Source of the DNA: Stercorarius parasiticus
Taxonomy: Eukaryota; Chordata; Aves; Charadriiformes; Stercorariidae
Reading direction: 5' to 3'
Assembly: GCA_013396915.1 (NCBI GenBank)
Contig: VWZL01000728.1
Location: 496,001-560,000 of the forward strand
DNA length: 64,000 bases
Below, in pieces: positions 12,549 to 35,258 of this stretch (position 1 is its first letter; every line of letters starts with the position of its first letter). Under the pieces are notes generated by a model. That model was given only the letters and a program-made list of their open reading frames with translations. It did no database searches and had not been told where the DNA came from. Both the position numbers and the translations under genes were made by a program.

Positions 12549-14360
12549 TTAAATCTCTACCTCAGTTACAAACTTTTTTCCTTTCCAAGGCAACATAACA
12601 GATTTTATCCCAGAATTTTGCAAATATTATCCTCACAGCACCTCATTTTTCCAAGGCAAAAAGCTCGGAGATGAACTGATCAATTATTTTCTGCCATGAA
12701 ATAATAAGCAATTTTAAAAGGAAATGCTTTGCAACTGAAAGGAAATTTCTTTGGGGAAAAATGTTAATTTCTACTTGAGATTTTCCGTGAAAGAAGGAAA
12801 TTATAATATATTTTTTCCTTCCAAAAATTCAAGAAAAAACACCTATCCCTTAAAAAAATAAATCACACTTTTTCATGTAATAATTTAAAAACACACCTGT
12901 TTGCTGGCTGGTTTAATGAGAAAAATAATATTTTTCCATTGAGGTTTTGTTACAGAACTAATTAAACCATATTATTGAAAATTAGTTAAAATTGCCGTGG
13001 ACCTAAACTGGTACTGTGGAATCTTGTCCTGTGACCAGTGAATAATATTGTTGGTTATAGTGATTTTTTTTTTTTTTGCTAGCCTTTTTTTTTTTTAACT
13101 TACAGTTCCAACTTTTACAGGTAGTTAACAATGACTATGTTAAGATTTATTGTAAGTATTAATAGTTATTTTGATGAGTTTCCCTCTATGAATATATTTT
13201 TTTCCTCATAATAATAACTGAAATGTTTAAAATATCCAACAGAGATAAAAAGAAAAAGAGGACACACATCATTGAACGGTTTACCACCATGGAAAATACC
13301 ACAAAATAGCCCATAATTATGGAAAATCAAATATAAGTGAGCCCATAAAGCCAACTTCTTTCTTTTAACATGCAGTCAGGGGAAGGAGAAAAGAAACAAC
13401 CCAAAACCACATGAACTGAAAAATACATTAACGTTGTAATTCAAAGCAGCTAAACTTTGTAAGGCACACGATTAAAACTTTTTGGGAGTCTAAACAAAGC
13501 TATAATTTTTTCCATGCTGAATAAAAGTATGCCATAAAAACTACATAAAATAGGAAAACCCTAGTTTTGATACACTGGGGAGCCCACGAGTGTATCTATA
13601 TTTGTTTCTTTATTAACAATTCAGGCTTCTTTTAGTACTTGAATAATACATTATGGTTTCATATGAAAATCATGATGCAAAGGAAAAACATCACTGTAAG
13701 CCACAAAATCAACAATTTCTACCACACAAGGGAATCGTTTTGACTTGCAGCCCTCTATACCTATCATTGTCAAGGTTAACCTTTCTAGGGACCATCTTTC
13801 CAGTACGCAAATTCAGTCAGGCCAAATATGGGATTTTGATACAAAAATGCAGCCCTCCACAGTGTAGGATTTATCTGTATAGTATAAAGCATTAAAGCAC
13901 TGGGTTCTTCTAATCTTTGTGTTTTATGAACCACAGAAAAGGAGAAAAAGCTCTCTACTCCTCACTTCAGAAATAACTTCATCTTAACTGTGAACTTTTA
14001 TTGTCTTCCTGTGAAAAGGGGCTTTCTTCAAAGAAGGTGTTCCCAGCCATCTGTTCACAAGGGACATTATCAGCTGGCAAATTTGGTTGGGTTTTGTTGC
14101 TTTAATTCAGTTTCAAAAACTTCAGACTTTCCAAATCTGGCAGCAGATGCAGAGTAAAAAATTTGTGTCTGTCAGCCCACTATTCCCTGACGAGATGCCT
14201 GGGAGCATGCTGATTATACATATGCAACTAATTAGGACCACAGTTAGGATAAATTAATGGATTGATTTACCTCCAGATCCAGTTAAGTGGCAACCTCATG
14301 CGCACACAGAGTAGCAGTCACTGCCCCATGATTTCTCGCTGTCTGAGTCTTGCCAGCCAA
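12549..14360. other. AT-rich non-coding stretch with T tracts; possible conserved block at its end
   Basis: T tracts occur at about 13066-13096. No gene is recognised. 14205-14290 contains a perfect CTAATTAG palindrome (14228-14235) and further ATTA cores, the kind of clustering seen in homeodomain-bound enhancers, but this is only suggestive. The stretch ends exactly where the first copy of the duplicated segment begins. Confidence 0.45.
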
Positions 14361-14816
14361 CCTGGAGTGGCCAGACTTCCCACCTCAGTCACAGATTGCC
14401 TCCTACAAGCTGTGAAAGGAGGAAGATACTTCAACGAGGGGGGTGGGGGGTAAATAGCACTCTCTTTTGACAGGAAGAGATGGCTGTTTCTGAGTGTAAA
14501 ACCCATTTTGCTGGTTCTGTTTCCCTTTCATGAAGTGCTAAAGGCCTCTGGCACTGTTTTAATGGCCCGTCTGGCTGAACATAAGCAGCAAACTTTTGGC
14601 AGAGCGTAGAAGCCAACTCGTCATTTATAAAGCCCCTTGTCTCTATGGTGCCAAATATCCCTCACACATAGTCCTACTTACTTCAGCCTGGTGATGAGCG
14701 AGGTCCCTGCAGTGGCTTTGGCTAGAGAGGCTTCATCGAATCCAAGTGCAGCAGCCACCCTTTTGTGAGGCAGCAAGGTTAAGACAGAAGAAACATGATC
14801 AGCAAGAACAACGTGT

Positions 14817-15255
14817 CTAGTGTTCCTGGCATTTATTGTTAAAGTCCAAAGTGGTACTTGCCAGACTGGGACATGAGAAACGTTCCCTGTGTAGGACAGT
14901 AGGGTACATAAAAAGCACTTCCCCTATCTTGCTTCTGTGTACTCTTCCCAGGGTCAAAATGCAGCTTTCTGCATTCTTCCCGGAAGAAGAGAAGATAATC
15001 TGCACCCCAGATTCCCTTGTTAACCTTCCCAAGGCCCTAAAGTCTCTTTTAATTACCCTTGGGCTATATGTTGCCACCTCATCACCACTCACATGGAAGA
15101 GAAACAGCGGGTAACAGTCCGAGGGCCATACCAGGCTAGGAAGTTTCCTAGTGATGTCTGTGACCCAGGCCCCAAGGAGGCAGCAGACTTCCCTAAGAAG
15201 AGGGTCTGCCTGGGATATTGGACCCTGTTCCCCTCAGAAGGGAGTCACCCACAAC
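14817..15255 (-). pseudogene. CR1 ORF1 esterase-domain remnant, copy 1
   Basis: Read on the minus strand, 15223-15255 encodes VVGDSLLRGTG, the block I motif (Gly-Asp-Ser with the serine nucleophile) of the SGNH-type esterase domain found in CR1 ORF1 proteins. A frameshift near 15205 moves the frame. It then continues as DPLLREVCCLLGAW, later SGDEVATYSPRVIKRDFRALG, and GVQIIFSS at about 14985-15010, all in the order expected of the CR1 ORF1 esterase. Beyond the GKNAES residues the protein no longer resembles the family, and the C-terminal Asp/His catalytic block is not found. The gene is therefore broken by frameshift and loss of its 3' part. The sequence is identical to the copy at 16667-17105. 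Confidence 0.75.
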
Positions 15256-15489
15256 TCCTACCTACCTCTTCTTCCTCGTGGAGGTGGTCATTAAACAGAG
15301 GGTAGGCATTTCCAGTCCTGGCAACACTTCTGGTGTAGTCAGACTGTCTTCCACATCATCCATGGGCTGGCCTGCCTACCTCCCTCATCAACAGCCTCAT
15401 ACCTATTGTTCGCTTGCCACCCCTAGCACGGACTTCCTTCCATTCACGGCTCTCCTGTTGGCTGCTACCTTCAGTCTGGCAGAGGGAGG

Positions 15490-15831
15490 CTACTGGATCT
15501 CCTTTAGCTTGGGTTTTTTTTGATGGCTGTTCAGTTTCTCTCTCAGGGAAGTCAGAGCCTGATTCCACCAATCTATTTCTTTCCCACACTCCCTGGTGCT
15601 GTGTAGCCTTTCCACTTCCTCTTTTAGCTCTGCCACCAGGCTGAGTAGACTAGCCACCTGATTGCACCTCACACAGCTGTCTGCCCTATTACCACCCATT
15701 AGCCGTGAGAGGATGCAGCACTCCCTGCAGCCTGAGGCCTGGATCGCTACATGCTTCCACGGGAGCTCTGTGTGGATACATCTGCTCTGACATAGTGCAG
15801 AAGATGCTGCTTTCTGCCGGGTAGAGACCAC
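15490..15831 (-). pseudogene. CR1 ORF1 N-terminal part (Cys-x2-Cys and coiled coil), copy 1
   Basis: A 113-codon minus-strand frame. It contains CREC at residues 35-38 and CVRC at 53-56, giving a C-x2-C-x14-C-x2-C arrangement that could bind zinc. A leucine/valine heptad stretch follows at about 57-82 (SLVAELKEEVERL) and then EIDWWNQAL. This is the N-terminal layout of avian CR1 ORF1, an RNA-binding partner of the element's reverse transcriptase. The frame stops after LKEIQ, while the conserved linker (QQESREWKEVRARGGKR) continues in another frame at 15356-15589, so there is a frameshift near 15530. This copy has Ile at residue 19 and Cys at residue 82, where copy 2 has Ser and Arg. Confidence 0.75.
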
Positions 15832-15839
15832 GGCTGAGC

Positions 15840-16041
15840 TCCCACTCCCCAGCCGAACGCCCCTCTCGAGCCGCCCTCGCGCGAGCTGCCGCTCCCTGCG
15901 CCACCCTGGTCTTTCCCCGCCTCAGAAAAGATCGGGAAATGCCCCTTTTCGGGCTTTTCGACGAGTGACGGTGGCGGTTACGCCTCGTTTAAACCTGCCG
16001 CCGCCGCTGCTGGCCCCGGCCCCGGCCCCGGCCCCGGGCCC
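15840..16041 (-). promoter_or_regulatory. CR1 5' UTR / CpG island, truncated copy 1
   Basis: A CpG-dense, GC-rich leader lies just upstream (minus strand) of the ORF1 remnant. It is cut off by the assembly gap inside the GGCCCC array at 16012-16041. The complete version is at 17690-18015 and is described there. Confidence 0.7.
16012..16041 (-). repeat. GGGGCC-type hexanucleotide array at the gap edge, copy 1
   Basis: Four GGCCCC units followed by GGGCCC. On the minus strand this is a GGGGCC repeat, a well-known G-quadruplex former and a frequent cause of polymerase and sequencing failure. The assembly stops exactly here. Confidence 0.9.
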
Positions 16042-16210
16042 NNNNNNNNNNNNNNNNNNNNNNNNNNNNNNNNNNNNNNNNNNNNNNNNNNNNNNNNNNN
16101 NNNNNNNNNNNNNNNNNNNNNNNNNNNNNNNNNNNNNNNNNNNNNNNNNNNNNNNNNNNNNNNNNNNNNNNNNNNNNNNNNNNNNNNNNNNNNNNNNNNN
16201 NNNNNNNNNN
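16042..16210. other. Assembly gap (169 N)
   Basis: 169 unknown bases. The left flank ends in the GGCCCC array and the right flank restarts 1,681 bp back in the same sequence, at the first base of the duplicated segment. Open frames reported across this gap (15922-16356 minus, 15965-16303 plus) are artefacts. Confidence 1.
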
Positions 16211-16666
16211 CCTGGAGTGGCCAGACTTCCCACCTCAGTCACAGATTGCCTCCTACAAGCTGTGAAAGGAGGAAGATACTTCAACGAGGGGGGTGGGGGG
16301 TAAATAGCACTCTCTTTTGACAGGAAGAGATGGCTGTTTCTGAGTGTAAAACCCATTTTGCTGGTTCTGTTTCCCTTTCATGAAGTGCTAAAGGCCTCTG
16401 GCACTGTTTTAATGGCCCGTCTGGCTGAACATAAGCAGCAAACTTTTGGCAGAGCGTAGAAGCCAACTCGTCATTTATAAAGCCCCTTGTCTCTATGGTG
16501 CCAAATATCCCTCACACATAGTCCTACTTACTTCAGCCTGGTGATGAGCGAGGTCCCTGCAGTGGCTTTGGCTAGAGAGGCTTCATCGAATCCAAGTGCA
16601 GCAGCCACCCTTTTGTGAGGCAGCAAGGTTAAGACAGAAGAAACATGATCAGCAAGAACAACGTGT

Positions 16667-17105
16667 CTAGTGTTCCTGGCATTTATTGTTAAAGTCCAAA
16701 GTGGTACTTGCCAGACTGGGACATGAGAAACGTTCCCTGTGTAGGACAGTAGGGTACATAAAAAGCACTTCCCCTATCTTGCTTCTGTGTACTCTTCCCA
16801 GGGTCAAAATGCAGCTTTCTGCATTCTTCCCGGAAGAAGAGAAGATAATCTGCACCCCAGATTCCCTTGTTAACCTTCCCAAGGCCCTAAAGTCTCTTTT
16901 AATTACCCTTGGGCTATATGTTGCCACCTCATCACCACTCACATGGAAGAGAAACAGCGGGTAACAGTCCGAGGGCCATACCAGGCTAGGAAGTTTCCTA
17001 GTGATGTCTGTGACCCAGGCCCCAAGGAGGCAGCAGACTTCCCTAAGAAGAGGGTCTGCCTGGGATATTGGACCCTGTTCCCCTCAGAAGGGAGTCACCC
17101 ACAAC
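16667..17105 (-). pseudogene. CR1 ORF1 esterase-domain remnant, copy 2
   Basis: Identical to the copy 1 remnant. VVGDSLLRGTG (block I with the Ser nucleophile) lies at 17073-17105 and the region REVCCLLGAW to GVQIIFSS at about 16830-17045, in a shifted frame. In the CR1 family this domain is thought to act as a lipolytic or acetyl esterase fused to the RNA-binding part of ORF1. Here the frameshift between the blocks and the loss of the C-terminal catalytic block make it non-functional. Sequence below about 16815 does not look like CR1, so a deletion or recombination junction is inferred there. Confidence 0.75.
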
Positions 17106-17339
17106 TCCTACCTACCTCTTCTTCCTCGTGGAGGTGGTCATTAAACAGAGGGTAGGCATTTCCAGTCCTGGCAACACTTCTGGTGTAGTCAGACTGTCTT
17201 CCACATCATCCATGGGCTGGCCTGCCTACCTCCCTCATCAACAGCCTCATACCTATTGTTCGCTTGCCACCCCTAGCACGGACTTCCTTCCATTCACGGC
17301 TCTCCTGTTGGCTGCTACCTTCAGTCTGGCAGAGGGAGG

Positions 17340-17681
17340 CTACTGGATCTCCTTTAGCTTGGGTTTTTTTTGATGGCTGTTCAGTTTCTCTCTCAGGGAA
17401 GTCAGAGCCTGATTCCACCAATCTATTTCTTTCCCACGCTCCCTGGTGCTGTGTAGCCTTTCCACTTCCTCTTTTAGCTCTGCCACCAGGCTGAGTAGAC
17501 TAGCCACCTGATTGCACCTCACACAGCTGTCTGCCCTATTACCACCCATTAGCCGTGAGAGGATGCAGCACTCCCTGCAGCCTGAGGCCTGGATCGCTAC
17601 ATGCTTCCACGGGAGCTCTGTGTGGCTACATCTGCTCTGACATAGTGCAGAAGATGCTGCTTTCTGCCGGGTAGAGACCAC
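17340..17681 (-). pseudogene. CR1 ORF1 N-terminal part (Cys-x2-Cys and coiled coil), copy 2
   Basis: A 113-codon frame with CREC (35-38), CVRC (53-56), a coiled coil at about 57-82 and EIDWWNQAL, as in copy 1 but with Ser19 and Arg82. At position 82 the charged residue fits the surrounding E-R-x-K run better than Cys does. The frame leaves the conserved linker at about 17380; the linker continues in the frame 17206-17421 (QQESREWKEVRARGGKR). The first ATG of this frame follows a GC-rich leader and may not be the original start. Confidence 0.75.
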
Positions 17682-17740
17682 GGCTGAGCTCCCACTCCCC
17701 AGCCGAACGCCCCTCTCGAGCCGCCCTCGCGCGAGCTGCC

Positions 17741-17965
17741 GCTCCCTGCGCCACCCTGGTCTTTCCCCGCCTCAGAAAAGATCGGGAAATGCCCCTTTTC
17801 GGGCTTTTCGACGAGTGACGGTGGCGGTTACGCCTCGTTTAAACCTGCCGCCGCCGCTGCTGGCCCCGGCCCCGGCCCCGGCCCCGGGCCCGCCTCCTCA
17901 GCCTCCCCGCGGCTCCCGGCACCTCCCCGGCCTGTCCCCGCCTCAGAACGGCTCGGGGAAAAAAG
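17741..17965 (-). repeat. Direct repeat, about 50 bp, 171 bp apart, in the CpG island
   Basis: 17741-17777 aligns without gaps to 17912-17948 with 30 of 37 bases identical by hand count, including a 14-base identical block TCCCCGCCTCAGAA. The similarity continues weakly through TCGGG, an A run and CCCTTT. This looks like two repeated promoter units in a retrotransposon leader. Confidence 0.65.
17862..17891 (-). repeat. GGGGCC-type hexanucleotide array, copy 2
   Basis: Four GGCCCC units plus GGGCCC, identical to 16012-16041 but read through in this contig. It is GGGGCC on the minus strand, with G-quadruplex potential. Confidence 0.9.
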
Positions 17966-18015
17966 ACCCTTTCCGCCGCCATCGCCCGGCTCCGCTGCGG
18001 AGCTGCTGCCACCGG

Positions 18016-18430
18016 AGATGTTCGTCTCTGAGGAAATATGTCAGCAAGTGAAGTGTTACAAATTCATGGATGACCCAGTCTTTGTTCTGCTCGCCACAGA
18101 AGTGTTTTGTTTCTGGTGATCTGGCATTGCTCACTGTTAGAGAGCAGGTTCAATGAGCAGCGCGCCAATGGCTTTGTCGAATTCCTTGTGCTTTGGGTGG
18201 GGAAGAGCGGCGTTTGCAAATGGCCCGTGGTCTTGTGGTTTCACGAATGGTGTTTGGTCTCTAATGAGCGAACTCTTTCTGCAAATGAATGAAACCATTG
18301 ATCATACTGCACAGGCCGTGGAGCCGCATCTGCCTTTTTGCCCCAGACCTTGGCAGTTTCCGGTCAGTGTTTCACCTGAGCGGCAAAGCCTGACAAGGAG
18401 CCCCACTCTGGGTCCTTCGAAGCTGAGTGC
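18016..18430. other. CpG-enriched shoulder of the CpG island
   Basis: CpG dinucleotides stay frequent to about 18430 (for example GCAGCGCGCC, GAGCGGCG, GAGCCGCATC), then drop to background. Overlapping plus-strand frames 18107-18292 and 18153-18452 (99 codons, rich in Ser/Pro/Trp) have no recognisable domain. The shoulder may be host sequence next to the CR1 5' end or the first exon of an unrecognised transcript; I cannot tell which. Confidence 0.5.
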
Positions 18431-30165: not shown

Positions 30166-33100
30166 CTTTCCTGGGAGAAGAAAGAATCAAGATTTCTGCT
30201 ATTTGGGAGAAAACACTAACTACTGGTCCCTATTTCTAACATTTGCATGTACATCTGCCACAAAAATGGCACAAATTGGTATTTCTTGTTGGAAAGAGAA
30301 GCCATGGAAGAAAGAGACAGAGTTTGAGCTTATCCTTGTATGGAATTGAATTGTCTCCTTTGTGCCAGAGAGAAGCCAGCTGGGTTTGAAACTTGCGCTG
30401 CTGTTGCCACTATATAGTCAGTCATCATACACAAGTATCATAATGTATGAATAGCTGGAGTTAAACCTTCTGGCACGAGGCCTGATGGGTACTTACTTCT
30501 GTCTCCACAAAAGAAACAATTTGAAATGTGAGTTATAAATAGGCTGTATGTTCTGCACCTCCTGCTGCTTAATTAATATTTTGCATTGGCAACGAGGAGT
30601 TGGTATACTCTCCACCCTCATCAAATCAGGTACCACTACAAACTCTTGTAAAAGAAGGAGTTTTGCTCATGTTCACAGTACTTTTTACAGCTTGTCAGGA
30701 ACTGGAATTTCTGCTTTGCAAGATCTGCTGCTATTTCCGTTTGTTTTCTGCTCATGCTAAATCAAAAATACCCCCTTTTTTTATGTTTTTCAGAGAAACA
30801 GGAAAATCTGGTGTCTCTGTTCTGTTTGATTTTTCTGAGACATTGCAGCTTGCTTTGACACTGGGCAACAGCTGCCTGCAGTGCTGCAGTGCCTGTTAGG
30901 ATTGTCATCCAGATGCCCCATGTCTTCCAGGACCTGGGCTGGACTAGCCTACGTTTCCCAGGATCTCTGTGGCATTTGATGCTGAGAAAGGAACCGTGTA
31001 CTCTATGAGGAAAGTGGTTCAACAGTGGTGGTCAACTCAAAAGAGACTGAGAGTAGAAGGCATGCACTTTCTGTAGGGGAATGTACTGATCCAAATAGTT
31101 GCTAATTGAGGCAAAGCTGAACTGAAAGAAAAAGAGGAAACCAAAATATTTTATTTTTGTTTTGGCCCAGCCAACCATATCAACTCAGAAATCTTGTATT
31201 CTCCACAAAGGAATTTTTCTTTTTGAAAATATCAACTTTAAGTCCCTTCCCCACTGAGTACTTTGACTGGTTTTCAGGAGAAGAACTACAGCTACATGCA
31301 CCTCCATCAAGACATCACGATTTTCCTTTCTGATCCACAGTCTCAGTAGCTCAGCTTTCCCCAGGATTCAGTGAGTCCCTCCAGCAAATGAGAGAATCAC
31401 AGAGGTACCTTATTCCATTACCTGTAATATTCCTGTTCCTTCTCTAGAGCTTGTCCAGCTAAACCCCATTGCTATCCTTAGTGGAAAAAAACTTATTATT
31501 TTTAACAATATTGGCAGTAATGCAGGCTGGCACTAGGACCTCCTTTTCTTCAAAAGCTTTGAACATCATGGAATGTCAGTCAAACAGATAGTACAACAGC
31601 TCAATGGTCATTCATTCACTCGCCTATGACACTGGCAGCAAGTGGCTCCTAATTCCCCATCTGATACAGGCACACCAAGGAAAGAGGCTGCCTGTGGGGA
31701 AAATGAAAAGAACAGCAGCAGCTAATAGTGATTAAGTCACTTAGTGCTGTGGCTATTAAACTGGAATGAAAAAAGGACAAATGCTCTTTTCCTTTCCTGT
31801 CTTTACTCCTGCACATTTTCTTTCAAAGCATCAAGCAACATAATCTTTCTATTAAGGATCACTTCAACAAAAATCTAGCTTTTGTTTCTCATAGGGCCCA
31901 TTGCTATTATTGCTAAACTCTTTTGAAACTGTTTTACCAAGGCTATTGCTTTTAAAAAAAAGAAAACCATCCCAGAAACACAACAAACCCCTTTGTGTTA
32001 CTCACAGGCACAAGCCATCTGCGGACATACAGCCTTGGGCTAGGATCTCATGCTGCCCATTAAATAGCTCTGATTCTCTCTGTAAATGCAAAACCTACTA
32101 AGTCAGGCATCCTCCTCAAATTCTCATCTGTATATTTGCATTAGGACTAGCTAGTGCTTCCCTTCCTGGTGTGATCAGATATTGCTTGGGAAACTTGCCA
32201 CATACTTTACCAGGATCTATCTGTTTTTAGGAAATCTCAGCTTTTCTACCTGTGACAGCTACTGGAATGTCTTTGTGAGCTGATTTTTCAAAAATCTCAA
32301 ATAGCCACATTTTTCCTGAAAAGCCAAGGCAAGAAATTTGTGGGCTTGACATTAAACTTCCCTGTTGCTTGCTTCATGCCTGCACGTCAGTCTAGTTTAT
32401 TAACCTGCTGCTGTCATTCAGTGACCCTAACTCGGTACCTAGTCTGTAAGGAAACCAGGTGTGTTTCATCACAAAGGGAACAAATAAAGGAAGTGTCTCA
32501 CTTCTGGTATCTGTCCACCCAAGGAATCTCAGCTTTTCTGAGAAAAAAAAAAGGTTGGAAATCAAGAGAACAGGTTAATAAAGCTGACAGGCAGAGTGAG
32601 AGAAATAATGAAAGCTCAAGTCAGGTACTCCTTTCAAAACGTGGCCTTCTATCTACTAACAGCCACTTTCTGAATAACCCCTCACTCTCAGAGTATAAGC
32701 TATAATGCCTTCTACTTACCAACATCTAGCCCCTTCCACTTTTGTGTTATCTATGCAAAAATCAGAGCAACGTGAAGCCTCTCCCCAAAACGAAAAGAGG
32801 CTATGAATACTGAAATCAATAGGAGAGCCCTCATCTCAGCCATTAGAGTTCTAGCAGGTAATGCTTTAGCAATTAAAAATGAACTATCCCTACTCCTTGC
32901 TTATCTCCCTACTGTCATCTTCGAGTTCTTGAGGGCCTAATGGGCATGTTTTTATTTCTAAAGATAAAATGTAATGGTACCAGAGAGTTTCACTCTGCCC
33001 AGCACTACAATTGCATTGGCTGTAGCTCTCCTTATAAGTGAATGAACAGCAATGGCTGAGATTATTTTCCCCACTGAGCTGCCACTGCTGACATTTATGA

Positions 33101-35198: not shown

Positions 35199-35258
35199 GA
35201 ATAGAACAGAATAGAATAGAATAGAATAGAATAGAATAGAATAGAATAGAGTAGAATA
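35199..35258. repeat. (AATAG)n microsatellite at a CR1 tail
   Basis: About eleven AATAG units with a few interruptions (AACAG near the start, AGTAG near the end). It lies exactly where the 3' tail of the adjoining minus-strand CR1 should be. On the minus strand it reads ATTCT repeats, the first five bases of the CR1 terminal octamer ATTCTRTG. Confidence 0.95.

Follow-up and report, generated by a model that had tools for sequence, protein, structure and literature searches.

We report that a near-identical pair of 1,681-bp sequences flanking an assembly gap is most likely an assembly artefact and not a real feature. The pair lies in the 64-kb stretch of DNA analysed here (the window, C353:496001-560000, part of a 2.31-Mb scaffold in a genome of 1.138 Gb and 3,254 scaffolds), and it is very probably a false tandem duplication in which overlapping contig ends were left unmerged, such that one single-copy locus was written twice. 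The size of the genome and its many CR1 elements point to a bird or something closely related. The artefact reading rests on the overlap itself, the direct abutment of both copies on the gap, a peak in GC content, single-copy flanks and the same signature in six other scaffolds.

The block comprises 14361-16041 and 16211-17891, and direct comparison of the two copies gave a constant offset of 1,850, no indels and two substitutions (99.88% identity). Copy 1 (14361-16041, plus strand), the end of the left contig, is joined to the unique left flank and its last base directly precedes a gap of 169 N (16042-16210), the sole N-run of the window; the first base of copy 2 (16211-17891, plus strand), the start of the right contig, directly follows the gap, and this copy runs on into the right flank. 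The coordinates, length, offset, gap size, lack of indels and two substitutions given in the earlier note were all exact, and its statement that copy 1 stops and copy 2 starts at the gap was confirmed, with 0 bp to the N-run on either side. Chance is excluded as a source of the pair since the expected number, assuming independent bases, is approximately 10^-967.

Full-length genome matches to the block were restricted to its own two places, among the 40 of 294 first-look candidates that were scored in a search that skips common words. For the left flank (13001-14360) this type of search, which skips common words, gave no other genome match, and for the right flank up to 19800, with the same skipping, the matches were confined to its CR1 part and a single piece of 38 bases. 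An allelic contig placed elsewhere was considered and rejected, as no further full-length match to the block or its flanks was obtained, an absence that a search skipping common words does not prove. We also surveyed 264 kb of the scaffold, i.e., the window plus 100 kb on each side, using megablast (word size 28, E 1e-20), and the block pair was the one self-match of at least 100 bp. The same 264 kb contain two N-runs, of 169 and 133, of which one is doubled; around the 133-N gap, no overlap was found in the 4 kb to its left and right.

The final 1,060 bases of each copy, starting at block base 622, form a minus-strand CR1 LINE fragment with approximately 70-88% identity to other copies of the family. 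In copy 1 the fragment (14982-16041, minus strand) consists of an ORF1 remnant and the GC-rich 5' region and is truncated by the gap, while in copy 2 (16832-18028, minus strand) it continues to approximately 18028 and reaches about its 5' end. The 5' region is at the right and the ORF2 side is missing. We assign the repeat to CR1 on the basis of homology, because the homologous element in scaffold C3044 continues into a piece matching RVT_1 (E 1.1e-5, 25.7 bits, under the Pfam cut-off of 29.6) and ends in TTCTGTGATTCTATGA at C3044:41480. The reported CR1 layout is a 5'UTR, two ORFs and a 3'UTR (PMC2734521) with TTCTGTGA as the 3' octamer (PMC2612034), and an esterase-type ORF1 is described as a trait of CR1 (type IV; PMC4120745). 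The block repeat is like a CR1 LINE in being homologous to this C3044 element, with its sub-threshold reverse transcriptase match and TTCTGTGA-type 3' end; it differs in that what is left at this locus is limited to the 5' region and a portion of ORF1, the 3' end being absent and no reverse transcriptase having been found. None of the ORF1 pieces tried gave a Pfam hit, nor did three block ORFs that were compared with Pfam. The ORF1 of the window's element may resemble the esterase type.

The GC maximum of the window, 87% per 100 bp, has the (GGCCCC)5 tract of copy 2 (17862-17892, plus strand) at its middle, and all 100-bp stretches of at least 70% GC fall inside this CR1 region. The counterpart of the tract in copy 1 (16012-16041) is where copy 1 stops. 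Read on the minus strand the tract is (GGGGCC)n, a known G-quadruplex former. The CR1 5' region also carries two related sub-repeats (17738-17801 and 17909-17975, 76% over 67 bp); similar doublings, 85-89% alike, are present in contigs C1228, C1203 and C959, as in a repeated 5' unit.

Among 22 N-free stop-to-stop ORFs of at least 110 aa in the window, 17 were compared with Pfam and none scored above the cut-off. A weak UCMA match at 32256-32702 (E 0.0043, 17.5 bits compared to a cut-off of 27.6) is probably due to chance, and a (GAATA)12 microsatellite with 92% matches is present at 35199-35258.

Duplicated overlapping contigs (DOC) were defined by Kelley and Salzberg in 2010 as adjacent contigs placed in series around a gap, with an end overlap of more than 300 bp and more than 95% identity and an alignment reaching both contig ends (PMC2864568). 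The block resembles DOC in all these respects: the contigs are adjacent with a single 169-N gap between them, and the end overlap, 1,681 bp at 99.88% identity, reaches to 0 bp from the gap on either side. A DOC is called misassembled if its mate pairs are more consistent after merging, and in the figures given in that study this applied to 5,698 of 5,947 chicken cases, 13,159 of 13,571 chimpanzee cases and 1,094 of 1,366 cow cases, but to only eight of 22 dog cases (PMC2864568). The block differs from DOC in that it is known here from assembly sequence alone and in that its identity tops that of most DOC, for which the study gives a median of 98.1% with few above 99.5% (PMC2864568); this high identity counts against a false duplication. 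In another account a gap between the members of a pair is described as a mark of false duplication, which is divided into heterotype (haplotypes) and homotype (errors, or no heterozygous k-mers) forms (PMC9516828). The block is similar to these, as its two near-identical members lie on a single scaffold and are separated by a gap; the type is set there by read depth and k-mer class, with half depth and haplotype-specific k-mers on both copies marking the heterotype (PMC9516828), whereas it was judged here from allele polarity.

The same signature was found in six more scaffolds, where overlaps between contig ends, 142-1,320 bp long and free of indels, abut an N-run on both sides. In C3044 (35195-36514 and 36950-38269; loci L008 and L004) the overlap measures 1,320 bp, has two substitutions, surrounds 435 N and lies within or beside a CR1 element. 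The others are C1089 (98079-98957; 439 bp, one difference, one N), C942 (184033-184738; 311 bp, two differences, 84 N), C651 (156306-156848; 271 bp, no differences, one N), C16 (168686-169216; 265 bp, 14 differences, one N) and C829 (14982-15266; 142 bp, no differences, one N). Hence, a single N is the whole N-run in four of these six, two of the overlaps (C651 and C829) are identical, and among the seven overlaps those of C353, C3044, C1089 and C942 pass the 300-bp minimum of Kelley and Salzberg. The recurrence of the signature in seven scaffolds indicates that overlapping contig ends were left unmerged repeatedly in this assembly.

These scaffolds emerged from searches with CR1 sequences. 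A doubled neighbour was seen for C353, C3044, C651, C16 and C1089 among the 40 scored of 294 first-look candidates, and for C942 and C829 among the 40 scored of 2,041 candidates with a CR1 ORF2 query; all five partial doublings picked from these lists and examined touch an N-run. The rest of both lists showed no near doubling in their coordinates, save CR1 5' sub-repeats (C1228 and C86). Tandem doublings without an N-run were present in three of nine other CR1 contigs compared (C1228, C1203 and C959; 11 stretches), where the copies, in the CR1 5' region, are merely 85-89% alike. In the sequence examined, near-identical doubling was therefore met exclusively astride N-runs. In total we saw 11 distinct N-runs in the genome, seven doubled and four without end overlap, and the latter count against a false duplication; since the overlaps surfaced through CR1 searches or the original finding, six of the seven on account of their doubling, seven of 11 is not a rate. 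The four comprise the 133 N of C353 and single N's at L003:175, L005:192 and L007:227, each less than 230 bases from its scaffold start, and many gaps of 1-5 N have been reported for an ALLPATHS-LG bird assembly (PMC7757076; cf. the single N's in L003, L005 and L007).

Taken together, the geometry, the six other scaffolds, the uniqueness in 264 kb and the published outcomes uphold the proposal in the earlier note of a false duplication from overlapping contigs placed in series, and the five further scaffolds (C651, C16, C1089, C942 and C829) moved our already high confidence in an artefact slightly upward. Assembly of the left contig would have proceeded to the right and broken down within the (GGCCCC)n tract and CR1 5' region. 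The right contig would span the tract and extend leftwards by a further 1,681 bp; both contigs would then have been ordered by the scaffolder, with the overlap left unmerged and 169 N inserted, and no chromosome would bear two units. The simplest cause may be scaffolding software that places overlapping contigs one after the other across a minimum or estimated gap, to which allelic SNPs may contribute. SOAPdenovo2 is described as often inserting gaps between overlapping contigs (PMC5368935); that case differs in that one contig is split, and is not identical to the one in the window.

With respect to why the contigs broke, short-read assemblies are reported to contain too little GC-rich sequence, and fragmentation of the Illumina and 10X assemblies of one bird was traced mainly to simple repeats, then to LTR and LINE elements (PMC7757076). 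CR1 as a sufficient cause was rejected, as most of the 40 + 40 scored CR1 candidates lack a doubling. The GC-rich tract was likewise rejected as a general cause: at C3044 the break does not coincide with a GC peak, and six contigs taken for the CR1 5' region (L032-L038) are free of N over the stretch examined, so the tract explains the C353 locus at best.

Within the artefact, we lean towards one sequence having been assembled twice at unmerged contig ends, with the differences being errors or reads from other CR1 copies. The very high identity, the lack of indels and the break at the 87% GC tract point in this direction, as do the two wholly identical overlaps (C651 and C829), which show that a haplotype difference is not required for merging to fail. 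The position of the differences also bears on this: they lie at most 454 (C353) and 361 (C3044) bases from the gap end of copy 1 (post hoc p approximately 0.005 for this clustering, or 0.02 with the close pair counted as a single event), all 14 in C16 fall inside the last 76 of 265 bases, and that of C1089 and one of the two in C942 are at base 9 and base 4 of copy 2, respectively. Such crowding at contig ends suits errors or foreign CR1 reads there. Against it, the other C942 difference falls in the middle of the overlap, and at 15588/17438 the base unseen in other CR1 loci sits in copy 2, in its interior.

The alternative, advanced in the earlier note, is that the contigs represent two haplotypes; each parental chromosome would have supplied one contig, and both substitutions would be heterozygous sites. 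It is possible and in our view the lesser of the two forms. At 15588/17438 the copies read A (copy 1) and G (copy 2), where nine other CR1 loci have A (five) or T (four) and none G, and at 15776/17626 they read A (copy 1) and C (copy 2), the latter being the base of all nine other loci compared; L006 and L038 are one locus and were counted once. Relative to the other CR1 loci each copy thus has one private base, G in copy 2 at 17438 and A in copy 1 at 15776, a pattern that, judged from the sequence, would fit two alleles and also errors or young paralogs. A derived base in each copy is what two haplotypes would give, one of the two C353 differences is a CA/CG transition, and the 0.13% obtained for C353 and C3044 combined (four differences in 3,001 bp) is a plausible heterozygosity. 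Yet, three of these four differences are transversions, and the first 1,227 bases of the copies are identical, such that two SNPs would hardly enforce separate contigs. In C3044 the copies have G and T at the first site, where seven other loci have C and the window's own element is gapped, and at the second G is shared by copy 2 and seven other loci, the base in copy 1 being T. The haplotype origin did not hold up as well as the rest of the earlier note, given the 1,227 identical bases, a difference of 0.12% (95% CI 0.014-0.43%), the few published false duplications above 99.5% and the identical overlaps in C651 and C829; the five further scaffolds led us to rank it under the form without haplotypes.

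That the block is a real, recent tandem duplication of approximately 1.85 kb, with the middle junction inside the gap and the GC-rich end of unit 1 unassembled, is very unlikely. Its main support is the positive gap size: a single unit implies negative values, whereas the gaps are +169 N here, 435 in C3044 and 84 in C942, and accurate mate-pair spacing would favour two units. For comparison, negative gap sizes are given for overlapping contigs in ALLPATHS-LG summaries (PMC5368935). The 169 N just fit the remainder of an 1,850-bp unit, and real tandem repeats too can break an assembly and leave one copy on each side of a gap. Graph assemblers tend to begin contigs at repeat boundaries, which we counted in favour of a real duplication. 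However, the same coincidence would be needed at seven scaffolds, megablast found no other duplication in the 264 kb, and microhomology at the candidate unit ends is not notable, reaching 5 bp at best (at 18168) over 509 positions.

Anyone using this assembly should treat repeat counts, copy number and SNP calls across 14361-17891 as unreliable. The inflation of feature counts foreseen in the earlier note is real and small here, amounting to one CR1 fragment and one (GGCCCC)n tract. A single N is the sole sign in four of at least six further scaffolds, so masking long gaps would overlook the signature, and tandem duplications astride an N in this assembly need checking before use. The relevance is limited to assembly users and the locus is biologically ordinary. 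Only in the improbable event that the block is a very young tandem duplication of approximately 1.85 kb that doubled the CR1 5' region and (GGGGCC)n, one among at least seven near-identical doublings within CR1 elements (with C3044, C651, C16, C1089, C942 and C829), would it mean that the CR1 elements of this genome keep generating fresh local duplications.
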